From positions 1 through 64,000 of the forward strand of contig NKIM01000021.1 of NCBI GenBank assembly GCA_002255955.1: 64,000 bases of DNA, given 5' to 3'. Shown here one piece after another: positions 1 through 6,940 of the stretch. This DNA comes from Burkholderiales bacterium PBB2 (lineage in GTDB: Bacteria; Pseudomonadota; Gammaproteobacteria; Burkholderiales; Burkholderiaceae_C). A model generated the notes under the pieces. The model was not told the DNA's origin, did not search any database, and saw only the letters and a list, made by a program, of their open reading frames with translations. Numbering within the stretch: position 1 is the first letter of the stretch; every line of letters starts with the position of its first letter. The position numbers and the translations under genes were made by a program.

Positions 1-280
1 GCGGGCGATGTGCGCCATCAACGGTGGAGCGCGCCACATCCGAAGGTGGCTCGGCCTGCCGACGGGCGATTTGTGCGCGGCCGAGGGCGCAGCGGAGCGG
101 CTCAGGCGCGCGTACTCGCGCGCTTCAAGCGCTGACTCGGCGCCACTGTTTGACCACAGTGAGCGCAGCGAACGGAGGGAGTTTGGCGCCGCTGAGCCGC
201 GCAGTGAGCACCGAGGGGAGTCGGCTCGCCGAGCCGACCCGCGAACCATGAGCCCGGCGGCGGGGCGAGCCACCGCAGCG
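1..280 (+). repeat. Multi-hairpin intergenic repeat, copy A
   Basis: This copy aligns without gaps to 6393-6672, with a constant offset of 6392, and in inverted form to about 6160-6364. It contains three clear hairpins: GCGCGCG/CGCGCGC at 106-123, CACTGT/ACAGTG at 144-161 and GTCGGCTCG/CGAGCCGAC at 220-238. The stem sequences differ in the other copies but stay complementary. The element may begin upstream of the window edge. Short ORFs called across it (8-283 and others) are not conserved as proteins and I do not believe them. It could be a MITE/BIME-like element or a structured RNA. No transposase is nearby. Confidence 0.85.
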
Positions 281-330
281 TGAGTGATCGGCTCAACGAA
301 GGTCCGCAATGAGCTGAATCTTGCCCATCA

Positions 331-377
331 TGAATTTGATTTGCGTTTGCTGAATTTGTTAAATATAGACAAATTCA
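331..377 (+). promoter_or_regulatory. Promoter and operator of the homogentisate operon
   Basis: This AT-rich island contains a perfect 9-bp inverted repeat, TGAATTTGT at 351-359 and ACAAATTCA at 369-377, plus a third half-site TGAATTTGA at 331-339. A possible promoter overlaps it: -35 TTGCGT at 341-346 and -10 TATAGA at 364-369, spaced 17 bp, so a bound repressor would cover the -10. The start codon of the first operon gene is about 80 bp downstream. The regulator is not in the window. IclR- and MarR-type regulators control such operons in other bacteria, but which family acts here is unknown. Nothing else is visible between 281 and 455. Confidence 0.6.
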
Positions 378-455
378 TTTGACTTTGGTTAAATCGAGGC
401 CTGCCGCTTTGTGCTGTTCCGGCGCCTGCGATGGCCCCTCAACGAGAGCTTTGTC

Positions 456-1442
456 ATGAGCCACCCGAACCCGACGAGCCCCAAGACTTTCGCTTCGCAA
501 GCCGATCTGGAGGTCAAGAAGGTCAGTTTTGACCAACTGTCGCCGCACGCGTACGCCTACACGGCGGAGGGCGACCCGAACACCGGCATCGTGATCGGCG
601 ATGACGCGGTCATGGTGATCGACACCCAGGCCACGCCGGTGATGGCGCAGGACGTGATCCGCCGCATCCGTGAAGTGACGGACAAGCCCATCAAGTACGT
701 GCTGCTCAGCCACTACCACGCAGTGAGGGTGCTCGGCGCTAGCGCCTACCGGGCCGAGGGCTGCGAGCAGATCATTGCCAGCCAGGACACCTACGACCTC
801 ATCGTCGAGCGCGGCGAGCAAGACAAGGCCAGCGAGATCGGCCGCTTTCCTCGTCTCTTCAATGCGGTGGAATCGGTGCCGCCGGGCCTGACCTGGCCGA
901 CCCTGACCTTCACCGGCAAGATGACGCTCTGGCTGGGCAAGCTGGAAGTGCAGATCCTGCAGCTGGGCCGTGGCCACACCAAGGGCGACACGGTGGTCTG
1001 GCTGCCGCAGGACCGGGTGCTGTTCTCGGGCGATCTGGTCGAGTTCGACGCCACGCCCTACGCCGGCGACGCCTACTTCCAGGACTGGCCCGCCACCCTC
1101 GACCGCCTGGCTGCGCTCAACCCGGCCAAGCTGGTGCCGGGCCGTGGCGCCGCGCTGCAAACGCCCGAGCAAGTGCAGGCCGGCCTGAACGGCACACGCG
1201 CCTTTGTCAGCGAGCTCTACGAGAGCGTCAAGGCTGGCGCCGCAGCGGGCCTGGATCTCAACGCCGTCTACCGCGAGACCTATGCCCGCTTGGCTGAGCG
1301 TTATGGCCACTGGGTGATCTTTGCCCATTGCATGCCCTTCGATGTGACCCGGGCGTTTGATGAGGCCAGCGGCCACGCCGACCCGCGCATCTGGACGGCC
1401 GAGCGCGATGTGGCCATGTGGAAGGCGCTGGAAGGCGTCTGA
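456..1442 (+). CDS. Metallo-beta-lactamase-fold hydrolase of the homogentisate operon
   Basis: This 328-residue protein has the metallo-beta-lactamase fold. The first metal motif, at about residues 86-91, reads HYHAVR instead of the classical HxHxDH, so it lacks the Asp and the last His of that motif. A later GRGHTKGD segment and the SGDLVEF segment match the second His and the bridging Asp regions. I chose ATG 456, preceded by GAGAG, over the upstream GTG at 411. The gene is first in an operon with an FAD monooxygenase, hmgA and fahA; only 11 bp separate it from the next gene. The substrate is unknown. Context suggests hydrolysis or detoxification of an aromatic-pathway intermediate, which is inference. 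Confidence 0.8.
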   Translation: MSHPNPTSPKTFASQADLEVKKVSFDQLSPHAYAYTAEGDPNTGIVIGDDAVMVIDTQATPVMAQDVIRRIREVTDKPIKYVLLSHYHAVRVLGASAYRAEGCEQIIASQDTYDLIVERGEQDKASEIGRFPRLFNAVESVPPGLTWPTLTFTGKMTLWLGKLEVQILQLGRGHTKGDTVVWLPQDRVLFSGDLVEFDATPYAGDAYFQDWPATLDRLAALNPAKLVPGRGAALQTPEQVQAGLNGTRAFVSELYESVKAGAAAGLDLNAVYRETYARLAERYGHWVIFAHCMPFDVTRAFDEASGHADPRIWTAERDVAMWKALEGV

Positions 1443-1453
1443 GGCTCAAGCCC

Positions 1454-3361
1454 ATGCGCGATCCCTACGTCTACCCGCAGTACGAGGCGCGCATCAGCGC
1501 CGAAGAACTGCACTGGCGAGCCACCGGCGAGGCGCTGCGCCGCCCGGTAGTGATCGTCGGCGCCGGGCCGGTGGGCCTGAGCCTGGCGCTCGATTGCGCT
1601 GCGCGTGGCTTGGCCGTCGTGCTGCTGGACGACAACAACAGCGTCAGCGTCGGTTCGCGTGCGGTCTGCTATGCCAAGCGCACGCTGGAGATCTGGTCGC
1701 GCCTGGGCCTGGCGCAGGATCTGGTGGCGCAGGGTGTGAGCTGGCGCCTGGGCCGGGTCTTCCATGGCGAGGGTCTGGCTTACGAGTTTGACTTGCTGCC
1801 TCAGGCCGGCCATGAGCAGCCGGCCATGATCAATCTGCAGCAGTACCACCTGGAAGAGCGATTGGTGGCCGCTTGCATGGCCGAGCCGCTGATCGATCTG
1901 CGCTGGAAGCACAAGCTGCTGGCGCTGACCGACGATGCCAGCGAGGAGGGTGGCCCGCTGCGCCTGCGCATCGAGTCGCCTGAGGGGGAAGAGTTCGAGC
2001 TGCTCGCTGATTGGCTGCTCGCCTGCGACGGCGCCAGCAGCGACGTCCGCCGCATGGTGGGCGCGGAGTTCAGCGGCAAGGCCTTCCAGGACCGCTTCCT
2101 GATCGCCGATGTGCACATCCCCGAGGCGCTAGGCTTCCCGACCGAGCGGCGCTTCTGGTTCGACCCACCGTTCCACCCCGGCCAGTCGGTGCTGCTGCAC
2201 CGTCAGAGCCGCAACATCTGGCGCATCGATTTCCAGCTTGGCTGGCAAGCCGACCCCGAGCAGGCACGCCAGCCCGAGAACGTGCAGCGCCTGGTGCGCG
2301 CCATGCTGGGCCCGGAGGTGCCGTTCGAACTGGAGTGGGTCTCGGTTTACCAGTTCGCCTGCCGCCGCATCGACCGCTTCCGCCATGGCCGAGTGCTCTT
2401 CGCCGGCGATGCAGCGCACCAGGTCTCGCCCTTTGGCGCACGCGGCGCCAACAGCGGCGTGCAGGACGCCGACAACCTGGCCTGGAAGCTGGCCGCCGTG
2501 TTGCAAGGCCGTGCGCCCGAAGCCCTGCTGGACAGCTACCACGCGGAGCGCGCCGCCGCCGCCGACGACAACCTGCGCCAGTCCACCCGCTCGACCGATT
2601 TCATCACCCCCAAGACCGCCACCTCGCTGCAGCTTCGCAATGCCGTGCTGGAGCTGGCCCGGCGCGAGCCCTTGGCCCGCCCTCTGGTCAACAGTGGTCG
2701 GCTGTCCATGCCCACGGTTTATCGCGATTCGCCGCTGAACACGGCCGATGCGCCGGGTGCGTTCGAGGCCGGCCCGGCGCCGGGTGAGCCTGTGCCTGAT
2801 GCGCCTGTGAACCGCGCCGGCCAGCCGACGTGGCTGTTGCGCGAGCTGCACCGGGCGGGGGCGGGCTTTGTGCTCCTGAGCTTCGGTGCGGTGGCCGCGA
2901 CAGGGGTGCCGGCTGAGTGTCATGCGCTCGTGGTGGGCGAAGACTTGATCGACGCTGAGGGCCTGCTGGCCGCCCGCTTGAACGCCCGACCCAGCACCGC
3001 TTACCTGATCCGCCCCGACCAAGTGGTGGCGGCACGCTGGCGCAGCTTTGACGCGGCGGCTGTGGCGCAGGCCCTGGACCGCGCCCTGGCGCGCAGCCCG
3101 GCGGCCTCGACCGCGCCCGCAGTTGCCCCCGCGAGCGCCGCCCTGAAGCGCCAACCCAATCTGCAAGACCCCGACGGTTTTTACGAACACCTGATCGCCG
3201 CCCAGAGTGATCTGGACGAGGGCCAGGCCCAGCGCTTTCTGGCCAAGCTGAGCCTGATCCTGGCCAACCAGATCGGCGACAGCGCGCTGCTGCGAGAAGC
3301 GATCGACCTGGCTCGCGAACCCGAATCTCCGACTTTGACTTCCAACGAATCTGCACCATGA
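1454..3361 (+). CDS. FAD-dependent aromatic monooxygenase fused to a DUF2783-like domain
   Basis: This 635-residue flavoprotein resembles the PheA/MhpA class A hydroxylases. The N-terminal dinucleotide-binding motif VGAGPVG lies near residues 35-41, and the second FAD motif [12 protein letters not shown] lies near residue 320. The last 55 residues or so (from [15 protein letters not shown]) look like DUF2783, which is normally a separate small protein beside such oxygenases, so this appears to be a fusion. Between them is a thioredoxin-like C-terminal region and an Ala/Pro linker. The ATG at 1454 follows the previous stop by 11 bp; the stop overlaps the hmgA start as ATGA. A role feeding hydroxylated phenylacetate into homogentisate is likely from context only. 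Confidence 0.85.
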
Positions 3362-4647
3362 GTGAAGCCTTGAACTACCAAGCCGGTTTCGGCAACCAGC
3401 ATGTCACCGAGGCCGTGGCCGGCAGCCTGCCCGTGGGTCGTAACAGCCCGCAGCAGGTGGCCCATGGCCTGTACGCCGAGTTGCTCTCGGGGGCGGCCTT
3501 CACCGCGCCGCGTTCCGAGAACCTGCGCACCTGGATGTACCGCCGCCAGCCCTCCGTCGTGGTGGGCAGTTATCAGCCCCTCAGCCATGACTTTCTGAGA
3601 ACCGGCGCGGCCGAGGGCCAGGCCGCTCCGCCGGACCCGCTGCGCTGGGCGCCGAGCGCCATCCCCGAGGCTCGCAGCGATTTTGTCGCCGGCCTGCGCA
3701 CCCTGGTCGTCAACGGCGACCCCGATGCGCAAGTGGGCATGGCTGCCCACCTCTACCTGGCCAATGCCTCGATGGAGCGCAGCGCCTTCGTCAACGCCGA
3801 CGGCGAGCTGCTGATCGTGCCGCAGCAGGGTGCCCTGCGCATCACCACCGAGCTCGGCCGCCTGGATGTGAAGCCGGGCGAGATTGCGCTGATCCCACGC
3901 GGCCTGGCTTTCAAGGTGGCGGTGGACGGCCCCTCGCGCGGCTATATCTGCGAGAACTACGGCGCGCCCTTCCGCCTGCCTGAGCTGGGCCCGATCGGCT
4001 CCAACGGCCTGGCCAATCCGCGCGACTTCCTGGCCCCGGTGGCGCATTTCGAAGCCGAGGCCGGCGCCTACGAGATCATCAAGAAGTTCGGCGGCAAGCT
4101 CTGGCGCGCCGAGCAGGGGCACACGCCCTTCAATGTGGTGGCCTGGCATGGCAACTTGACGCCTTACAAGTACGACACCGCGCATTTCATGACCATCGGC
4201 TCGATCAGCTTCGACCACCCGGATCCGAGCATCTTCACCGTGCTGACCTCGCCCAGCGACACCGCCGGTTGGGCCAATGTGGACTTTGTGATCTTCCCGC
4301 CGCGCTGGATGGTGGCCGAAGACACCTTCCGCCCGCCCTGGTATCACCGCAACGTGATGAGCGAGTTCATGGGCCTCGTGCTGGGTCAGTACGACGCCAA
4401 GCCCGAGGGCTTCAAGCCCGGGGGCTCCAGCCTGCACAATGCCTACGTGCCGCATGGCCCGGACACCGAAGCCTTCGCCAAGGCCAGCAGCGTGGACCTG
4501 GCGCCGCACAAGCTGGACCACACCCTGGCCTTCATGTTCGAGACCCGCTGGCGCTTGCTGCCCACCGAGTTCGCCATGAACGGTGGCGCGCTGGAAACCA
4601 GTTATGCCCAGTGCTGGAGCGGCTTGCAAGACCGCTTCAGCGCCTGA
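3358..4647 (+). CDS. hmgA: Homogentisate 1,2-dioxygenase
   Basis: This 429-residue protein matches homogentisate dioxygenase over its full usual length. The enzyme opens the ring of homogentisate with molecular oxygen and Fe(II), giving maleylacetoacetate. The N-terminal [13 protein letters not shown] and the [20 protein letters not shown] segment, which holds iron-ligand and active-site histidines, are both intact. Its start overlaps the stop of the monooxygenase by four bases, which suggests translational coupling. The next gene encodes fumarylacetoacetase, two steps later in the same cytoplasmic pathway. The isomerase that acts between them (maleylacetoacetate isomerase) is not in this window. 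Confidence 0.97.
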
Positions 4648-4690
4648 ATCGACTTCAGAAGTATTGACCGATAGTTTGAGAACCTCCCCC

Positions 4691-6022
4691 ATGAGCTTGA
4701 TCGACCACACCCACAGCCCCAGCGCCCAGTCCTGGGTGGACAGCGCCAACGCGGCCGACACCGACTTCCCGATCCAGAACCTGCCCTACGGCCTGTTCCG
4801 TCGTGCCGGCAGCAATGAAAGCGCCCGCGTCGGCGTGGCCATTGGCAGCCAGATCCTCGATCTGCGCCTGGCTGCTGCTGCCGGCAAGTGGAGCAGCAGC
4901 GTGCAGGTGCTGCTGCAGCCCCTGGCCGATGGCAATCTGAACGCCTTTATGGGCCAGCCCTCGGCGGCGCGCCTGGAGCTGCGCCATGCCTTGTTCGATG
5001 CACTGCTGGCGGGATCCAAGCAAGAGGCCGCTCTGCGCGACTGCCTGCTGGCCCAGGCCGAGGCGCAGATGGCCGTGCCTTGCCGCATCGGCGATTACAC
5101 CGACTTCTACACCGGCATCCACCACGCCACCACGGTGGGCAAGCTGTTCCGTCCGGACAACCCGCTGCTGCCCAACTACAAATGGGTGCCCATCGGCTAC
5201 CACGGCCGCAGCTCGTCCATCGGCGTCAGCGGCGGCACGGTGCGCCGCCCGTTGGGCCAGCTGAAAAGCCCCGACGCCGAAGTGCCGGTGCTGGCCGCTT
5301 GCAAGCGCCTGGACTATGAGCTGGAGCTGGGCGTCTTTGTGGCCAGCGGCAATGAGTTGGGCACCCCCATCCCGATGGAGCAGGCCGACGAGCATCTGTT
5401 CGGTGTGACCCTGCTCAACGACTGGTCGGCCCGCGATGTGCAGGCCTGGGAGTACCAGCCGCTGGGCCCCTTCCTGGCCAAGAACTTCGCCACCACCATC
5501 TCGCCCTGGATCGTCACGATGGAAGCGCTGGAGCCCTTCCGCGTGCCCTTCTCGCACCCGGCTGAAGATCCCCAGCCCCTGGCCTACATCGATTCGCCCC
5601 GCAACCGCAGCGAAGGCGGCTATGCAATCGAACTCGAAGTTTGGATCCAAACCGAGAAGATGCGCGCCGCCGGAGAGCCCGCCACGCGCCTGATGCGCTC
5701 CAACTTCAAGCACGCCTACTGGACCCTGGCCCAGATGCTGACCCACCACGCCAGCAATGGCTGCAATCTGCAGCCGGGCGACTTGATGGGCACGGGCACC
5801 CAGTCCGGCCCCGAGGCGGCTGAAGGCGGCTCGCTGCTGGAGCTGTCGCTGGGCGGCAAGCAAGCCCTGACCCTGCCCAATGGCGAGACACGCACCTTCT
5901 TGCAAGACGGCGACACCATCAGCCTGCGCGGCTATGCCGAAACCAGCAGCCTGGCCGGCGGCGCTCGCCGCATCGGCTTCGGTGACTGCAGCGCCACCAT
6001 CGTGCCGGCGCCGCAGCTCTGA
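4691..6022 (+). CDS. fahA: Fumarylacetoacetase
   Basis: This 443-residue protein hydrolyses fumarylacetoacetate to fumarate and acetoacetate, the last step of tyrosine and homogentisate breakdown. It has the small N-terminal SH3-like domain followed by the FAH catalytic domain. Visible signatures are DYTDFYTGIHHATTVGKLFRP, GYHGRSSSIG, LLNDWSARDVQAWEY and GTGTQSGP. I chose ATG 4691 rather than the track start at 4583, because the longer form would run into hmgA. The gene lies 43 bp after hmgA and ends the operon, with a strong terminator 20 bp downstream. Confidence 0.96.
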   Translation: MSLIDHTHSPSAQSWVDSANAADTDFPIQNLPYGLFRRAGSNESARVGVAIGSQILDLRLAAAAGKWSSSVQVLLQPLADGNLNAFMGQPSAARLELRHALFDALLAGSKQEAALRDCLLAQAEAQMAVPCRIGDYTDFYTGIHHATTVGKLFRPDNPLLPNYKWVPIGYHGRSSSIGVSGGTVRRPLGQLKSPDAEVPVLAACKRLDYELELGVFVASGNELGTPIPMEQADEHLFGVTLLNDWSARDVQAWEYQPLGPFLAKNFATTISPWIVTMEALEPFRVPFSHPAEDPQPLAYIDSPRNRSEGGYAIELEVWIQTEKMRAAGEPATRLMRSNFKHAYWTLAQMLTHHASNGCNLQPGDLMGTGTQSGPEAAEGGSLLELSLGGKQALTLPNGETRTFLQDGDTISLRGYAETSSLAGGARRIGFGDCSATIVPAPQL

Positions 6023-6042
6023 TCGATACGGCCTGAACTCAG

Positions 6043-6070
6043 ATGGCGCCGCAAGGCGCCATTTCTTTGC
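6043..6070 (+). terminator. Rho-independent terminator of the homogentisate operon
   Basis: A perfect 8-bp stem, ATGGCGCC/GGCGCCAT, with a GCAA tetraloop is followed by TTTCTTT, 20 bp after the fahA stop codon. Confidence 0.85.
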
Positions 6071-6159
6071 GGGGGCCGCGAGAGCCCGAAACCTGTGTTT
6101 GGTGGTCCGGAGTCGGCACGAAGCCGCCTTTGGTTTTGCTCGTGAGGCCCTGCAGCACG

Positions 6160-6364
6160 CGCCGCTACCGGGCTCATGGTTCCGGGGTCGGCCCTGGCGG
6201 GCCGACTTCCCTGCGCTGCTCGCACCTCGGGGCTGGCGCATAACTCACTCCGCTCCCTGCGTTCGCTTCGTTCAAACAGAAGCGCCAAGTCAGAACTTGA
6301 AGCGCACGGGTACGTGCGCGCCCCGAGGCGCTGCGCTGCTCGGCCCTTCACAAATCGCCCCGCA
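6160..6364 (-). repeat. Multi-hairpin intergenic repeat, inverted copy B
   Basis: The reverse complement of this stretch aligns with positions 59-263 of copy A and with the matching part of copy C. It is more diverged than the other two. All three hairpins survive with different bases: GCGCACG/CGTGCGC at 6302-6319, CGCTTC/GAAGCG at 6264-6284 and GTCGGCCC/GGGCCGAC at 6187-6206. It faces copy C across only about 30 bp, so the pair could fold into a very large cruciform. No gene is credible between 6023 and 6940. Confidence 0.8.
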
Positions 6365-6392
6365 GCGGCACGGGCTGCAGGGCGCTTGCATC

Positions 6393-6672
6393 GCGGGCGA
6401 TCTGCCCCTTCGACAGTGGAGCACGCCACATCCGAAGGTGGCTCGGCCCGCCGACGGGCGATTTGTGCGCGGCCGAGGGCGCAGCGGAGCGGCTCAGGCG
6501 CGTGGTCCCACGCGCTTCAAGCTCTGACTCGGCGCCACTGTTTGACCACAGTGAGCGCAGCGAACGGAGGGAGTTTGGCGCCGCTGAGCCGCGCAGTGAG
6601 CAGCGAGGGGAGTCGGCTCGCAGAGCCGACCCGCGAACCATGAGCCCGGCGGCGGGACGAGACACCGCAGCG
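6393..6672 (+). repeat. Multi-hairpin intergenic repeat, copy C
   Basis: This copy is the same length as copy A (280 bp, ungapped) and is nearly identical outside a few variable blocks. Its hairpins are GCGCGTGG/CCACGCGC at 6498-6515, CACTGT/ACAGTG at 6536-6553 and GTCGGCTC/GAGCCGAC at 6612-6630. Copies A and C lie as direct repeats on either side of the homogentisate operon. About 270 bp of further sequence without a visible gene separates it from the TonB receptor start. Confidence 0.85.
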
Positions 6673-6940
6673 CGGAAACCCGGACACCGAACTTCCGCTA
6701 TGTGTCGCTTCCCGCCCTTCAGACTCCGGGTATCCCCGCGCTTCCGTCTTGCATCAGCCCCTGCTTTGTAAGACCGGTGCAATGAAGTCCTGCAAAACGC
6801 AACGTGCTGATCTGGCGCTGCAGCGGGCCGCTAAATTGCCGAGGTCGAAGCATGGGCCTGCCCGGCTTGCTGCCTGCGCTGTGGCAGCGGACTCATCATC
6901 ACATCAAGCAAGACGCAAAATACTTTCGGAGACCTGTTCC

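Follow-up and report, generated by a model that had tools for sequence, protein, structure and literature searches.

Palindromic elements with a common end site and different cores at orthologous intergenic positions in Paucibacter-like bacteria

The facing repeats downstream of the fumarylacetoacetase gene in the window, the whole 64,000-nucleotide stretch analysed here, form one dispersed palindromic element, and at most of the orthologous sites compared between two species the element has a different, unrelated core behind the same ends. We consider it probable that these are non-autonomous palindromic elements swapped or flipped at fixed sites by a putative site-specific recombinase or a strictly target-specific transposase. 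The comparison covers three draft genomes: that of the window (G000; 5.48 Mb in 90 contigs, with the window at the start of contig C50), Paucibacter sp. DJ2R-2 (G009) and a metagenome-assembled genome labelled 'Rubrivivax sp.' (G002).

Results

The element in the window and its copies

The initial annotation described back-to-back inverted repeat copies at 6160-6672 that could form a large cruciform. The facing repeats are indeed there, copy B on the minus and copy C on the plus strand, about 24 bp apart and downstream of a terminator-like hairpin; the hairpin lies between the fumarylacetoacetase stop codon (6020-6022) and the element, and does not appear in the output of a simple terminator scan. 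In an alignment of 15 loci with their flanks, however, the repeats resolve into one sharply bounded unit, CGGCAC...GTGCCG. Copies B and C are therefore the two arms of a single dispersed element and not independently placed copies (Table 1). The cruciform or hairpin potential is supported by folding far beyond that of shuffled sequence. As single-stranded DNA the window element reaches -221 kcal/mol, against -155 +/- 5 for the shuffles (z -12.4; none of 100 shuffles as good), and as RNA it has a z of -12.9. No Rfam family matches at gathering score, the sub-threshold matches being microRNA-type hairpins and one of snoRNA type.

Table 1. Coordinates of the element and neighbouring features in the window
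Feature	Position	Strand	Remarks
Complete palindromic element, core family I	6114-6707	+	594 bp, CGGCAC...GTGTCG; bounds from full-copy alignment and onset of locus-specific flanks
Left 24-bp end site, GTCCGGAGT-CGGCAC-GAAGCCGCC	6105-6128	+	fits the consensus from 72 ends of 36 elements
Right end site, inverted, degenerate, minus-strand hexamer CGACAC	6693-6716	-	read from the sequence
Left palindrome arm (copy B)	6162-6368	-	pairs with the right arm at about 75% complementarity
Right half (copy C)	6393-6672	+	94% identical to copy A (window 1-280); stretch complementary to the left arm about 6441-6655
Copy A, what remains (the right part) of another core-I element, on the upstream side of the hmg operon	1-316	+	truncated at the contig start; GAGCTG, a degenerate end, at 311-316
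Hairpin resembling a terminator, after the fumarylacetoacetase gene and before the element	6042-6066	+	direct reading

The right half of the element has at least 58 matches across the window's genome, and most of the full-length ones face a partner arm that is about 75% complementary and lies at the same distance. More than 30 copies of core I, full or truncated at contig ends, are present in this draft; more than 12 of them, in addition to the loci aligned above, end at contig edges. These counts are lower bounds; as so many copies are cut by contig ends, the assembly must have broken inside the elements. Some core-I copies lack about 120 bp of the left arm and others most of the right arm. 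Internal deletions were seen at L011, L015, L016 and L023; those of the left-arm type (L011, L015 and L016) lie between short direct repeats, for example GCGCTGCTCG, and shorten one arm of the palindrome, as would be expected from slippage at a palindrome. The elements are located 3' of genes: by simple ORF calling, 13 of 21 loci lie between convergent and eight between tandem genes, with none between divergent genes, and several elements begin just past a terminator-like hairpin.

Four cores behind one end site

Elements with four unrelated palindromic cores, of about 595 (I), 318 (III), 169 (II) and 130 bp (IV), have a common end site, and all four cores fold strongly (z -9 to -12.4). Core IV was found in DJ2R-2 and G002. 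The end site is 24 bp long, GGCKGC-WWT-CGGCAC-RRA-GCMGYC, and occurs once at each end of an element, in inverted orientation; it consists of a 9-bp arm, a 6-bp asymmetric centre, CGGCAC, and a 9-bp inverted arm. Similarity among the cores is confined to the terminal 15-23 bp or so, where CGGCACNRAGCMGYC is found at both ends as a terminal inverted repeat that is enriched relative to the control. The strict full-site pattern occurs 23 times in the window's genome, 28 times in DJ2R-2 and 12 times in G002, against two to three occurrences of a control pattern, and is near background in other members of the genus.

The outer half-site, GGCNG, is not part of the element but remains at the locus, and the rest of the flank is locus-specific. 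Across 72 ends it is well kept (G-9 in 63, G-8 in 50, C-7 in 67 and G-5 in 65); its conservation was also tallied over 56 ends of the window's genome alone. No target-site duplication was found: direct repeats at the borders of 36 elements (k = 2-6) were no commoner than in shuffled pairs.

In more distant relatives core I persists at about 80% identity with other end sequences, an example being the GTGCCC-type centre found in both G007 and G001; the end site seems to differ by clade. The copies concerned are L048 and L063 (G007) and L047 (G001), with GTGCCC/GGGCAC at the centre; the outer arm in G007 is still GGCGGC-like. Weaker relatives of the core-I arm occur in other genera of the family (L051 and L066 in G023, L050 and L067 in G025, L055 in G032), often as facing pairs in G023. 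One core-I copy in G002 (L045) has the left end GCCGTCGTTCGC, which is typical of core II and is possibly a chimeric end.

Orthologous sites in other species

At the site between the fumarylacetoacetase and TonB-receptor genes, DJ2R-2 has, at the same position, a palindrome of about 170 bp that is unrelated in sequence but shares the ends; in G002 core I lies there the other way round. Comparison of the window's genome with DJ2R-2 at 29 distinct sites gave another core at 22, the same core at four, and three sites that look empty in one species. Fifteen of these sites were chosen in the window's genome (the window site, copy A and 13 further core-I loci, with L037 left out); in DJ2R-2, 12 have core II or III, two have the same core and one has nothing recognisable. 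The site orthologous to copy A, upstream of the hmg operon, holds a complete element in DJ2R-2. In the reciprocal sample, 16 DJ2R-2 elements correspond in the window's genome to 12 different cores, two cases of the same core and two empty sites; L190 and L194 proved to be the right flanks of loci already counted, which leaves 14 new sites, 10 of them differing. One site holds cores II, III and IV in the three species respectively. Between the window's genome and G002, core I is flipped at four of seven sites (the window site, L009, L013 and L195) and unflipped at L010, L012 and L016. Two sites filled in DJ2R-2 appear empty in both other genomes, and no clean empty site with the pre-insertion sequence was found among the genomes compared.

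At three loci of the window's genome, L010 (C13), L014 (C70) and L017 (C23), the left and right flanks are separated in DJ2R-2. At L010 G002 sides with DJ2R-2 against the window's genome, and the expected flank is found at the far end of the contig that carries the window (L026). These breaks may reflect rearrangement or a misassembly at the repeat, and because misassembly explains them equally well we set them aside as evidence.

Discussion

Exchange or re-insertion at fixed sites

We propose that in Paucibacter-like species such sites would lie at fixed places downstream of genes, and that the core between the two end sites may be replaced or flipped over time. The enzyme would act on the CGGCAC-centred ends, either by a cassette exchange like that of tyrosine recombinases or as a transposase with a strict palindromic target. 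Flips could then come from recombination within one element, and replacement of the core from exchange between elements. With a recombinase that works on two inverted sites one would expect flipped cores, core replacement, a retained outer half-site, the lack of a target duplication and a low number of empty sites, and each of these is seen. Most of the pattern would also follow from a strictly target-specific transposase, but that should leave more sites empty. From these expectations we infer exchange rather than loss and re-insertion, recombination as its cause and the kind of enzyme, although loss followed by re-insertion at a strongly preferred target would yield an identical end state. 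The three genomes are drafts, in which repeats of the size of these elements can be joined wrongly, and no recombinase or transposase gene was located between or beside such ends.

In its most specific form the proposal is tentative, and we think it possible rather than probable: a chromosomal cassette exchange in which dozens of intergenic sockets, each with two inverted 24-bp sites, serve a putative site-specific recombinase that swaps and flips non-coding palindromic cores genome-wide. If the sockets are constant while the palindrome changes, these intergenic repeats record turnover at constant sites and not independent insertions. This would point to a new enzyme acting on the 24-bp site, would explain why unrelated hairpins can follow the same genes at their 3' ends, and would provide a ready comparative test of what 3' hairpins do. 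In practice, assemblies made from short reads break at the elements in these species, and may be misjoined there.

One lead to an enzyme is an orthologous tyrosine integrase of 501-504 aa, 94% identical between the window's genome (L271) and DJ2R-2 (L270). No close orthologue was found in G004 or G010, and there is no tRNA gene in the 3.5 kb around the gene. It is only a lead, because no hit came from the 76% complete G002, and an integrase at 59% is present in G001. An enzyme of the IS110/Piv type was also considered and rejected, as the DEDD transposase domain PF01548 is absent from the window's genome.

Alternatively, these may be ordinary MITE families with the same terminal inverted repeats that depend on a single transposase, its palindromic target being very strict (GGCKGCWWT/AWWGCMGCC), and that hit the same sites independently after earlier copies were lost. 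Common ends around unrelated cores and the strong conservation of the flanking half-site would suit a target-specific transposase, as would the two sites occupied in DJ2R-2 that look empty in the window's genome and G002. We nevertheless regard this as rather unlikely: target duplications are missing, no autonomous copy was found, and empty intermediates are rare, about three of 29 sites against 22 with different cores. Between paired exact-match ends there was no ORF at the loci of the window's genome or at those examined in DJ2R-2, a survey that is not exhaustive since both genomes are drafts.

The position of the elements also recalls REPIN or BIME-type elements moved by a RAYT (Y1 HUH) transposase, in which case the 24-bp end site would be the REP. 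Palindromic end units in inverted pairs, located 3' of genes and between convergent genes, are known for REPs (PMC3733652), and every genome of the genus has Y1 transposase genes. Yet at 30 Y1_Tnp loci neither a core nor paired end sites turned up within about 1.5 kb, genomes without the elements carry the same kind of Y1 gene, and the ends have no obvious GTAG tag, so that we find this origin improbable. The number of Y1_Tnp matches is itself uneven: G017 has 31, many of them fragments at contig ends, against one to four in other members of the genus.

It is still less likely that misassembly at repeats produced the differences between species. Many contig ends of the window's genome do fall inside core I, the flanks of L014 and L017 map apart in DJ2R-2, and at L010 both other genomes disagree with that of the window. 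Which core lies beside a unique flank, however, is decided within about one read length of the junction, elements of 130-318 bp are easily bridged, and DJ2R-2 keeps synteny on both flanks of the window site.

The initial annotation further suggested that direct and inverted repeats around the hmg operon could allow its deletion or inversion by recombination. As a description this is literally true, the operon being bounded in the window's genome by two elements in direct orientation, but the arrangement is a by-product of two dispersed elements. The fumarylacetoacetase gene is present in 17 of 18 genomes of the genus, the exception being the 76% complete G002; in the 12 relatives inspected it has the TonB-receptor gene downstream, and DJ2R-2 is collinear with the window across the whole operon (93% identity over bases 6-6022). 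Comparison of relatives for inversion or loss of the operon, as had been recommended, found neither. Nor is the arrangement fixed in all relatives, which was to have counted against the suggestion: junction variants exist, but they are variants of the element itself, namely the other core of DJ2R-2 and the flipped core of G002. The operon is present and in order in relatives, and dozens of unrelated loci carry the same elements. That the element is a fixed repeat serving to delete or invert the operon, as its two direct-oriented flanking elements might suggest, is extremely unlikely.

Comparison with known systems

Searches of plasmid and phage collections by DNA similarity gave no match to the element. 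In the open-access literature we found no relevant paper on the core-IV sequence or on repeats of Roseateles or Paucibacter; an earlier description elsewhere is possible. MITEs and REPs match the elements in location and palindromy, but their defining tests failed here. MITEs such as the Correia elements, which can invert (PMC10969869), are likewise short, non-coding, intergenic and multi-copy with inverted ends. They differ in that here there is no target-site duplication, no parent transposase was found, and unrelated cores swap at the same position behind common ends. REP, BIME and REPIN sequences are also palindromic and lie 3' of genes and between convergent genes, whereas our elements have no RAYT association, no obvious GTAG tag and much longer cores.

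The architecture is closest to that of the Neisseria NIME elements with their dRS3 repeats, ATTCCC(N8)GGGAAT, in which inverted-repeat end units of about 20-24 bp enclose short intergenic cores of several families (PMC3898611). The end site here, GGCKGCWWTCGGCACRRAGCMGYC, is unrelated to dRS3, however, the cores are long, near-complete palindromes, and the elements stand singly and not in arrays. In addition, no phage integrase is linked to the elements here, and the core at a given site differs between sister species. The apparent exchange resembles that of the Xer pdif modules of Acinetobacter plasmids, which are bounded by site-specific recombination sites and have their content reshuffled. 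The pdif site has an 11-6-11 plan in an inverted arrangement. The end site of our elements resembles it in geometry, but is a GC-rich 9-6-9 one that is not obviously dif-like, and the modules it bounds are chromosomal and non-coding.
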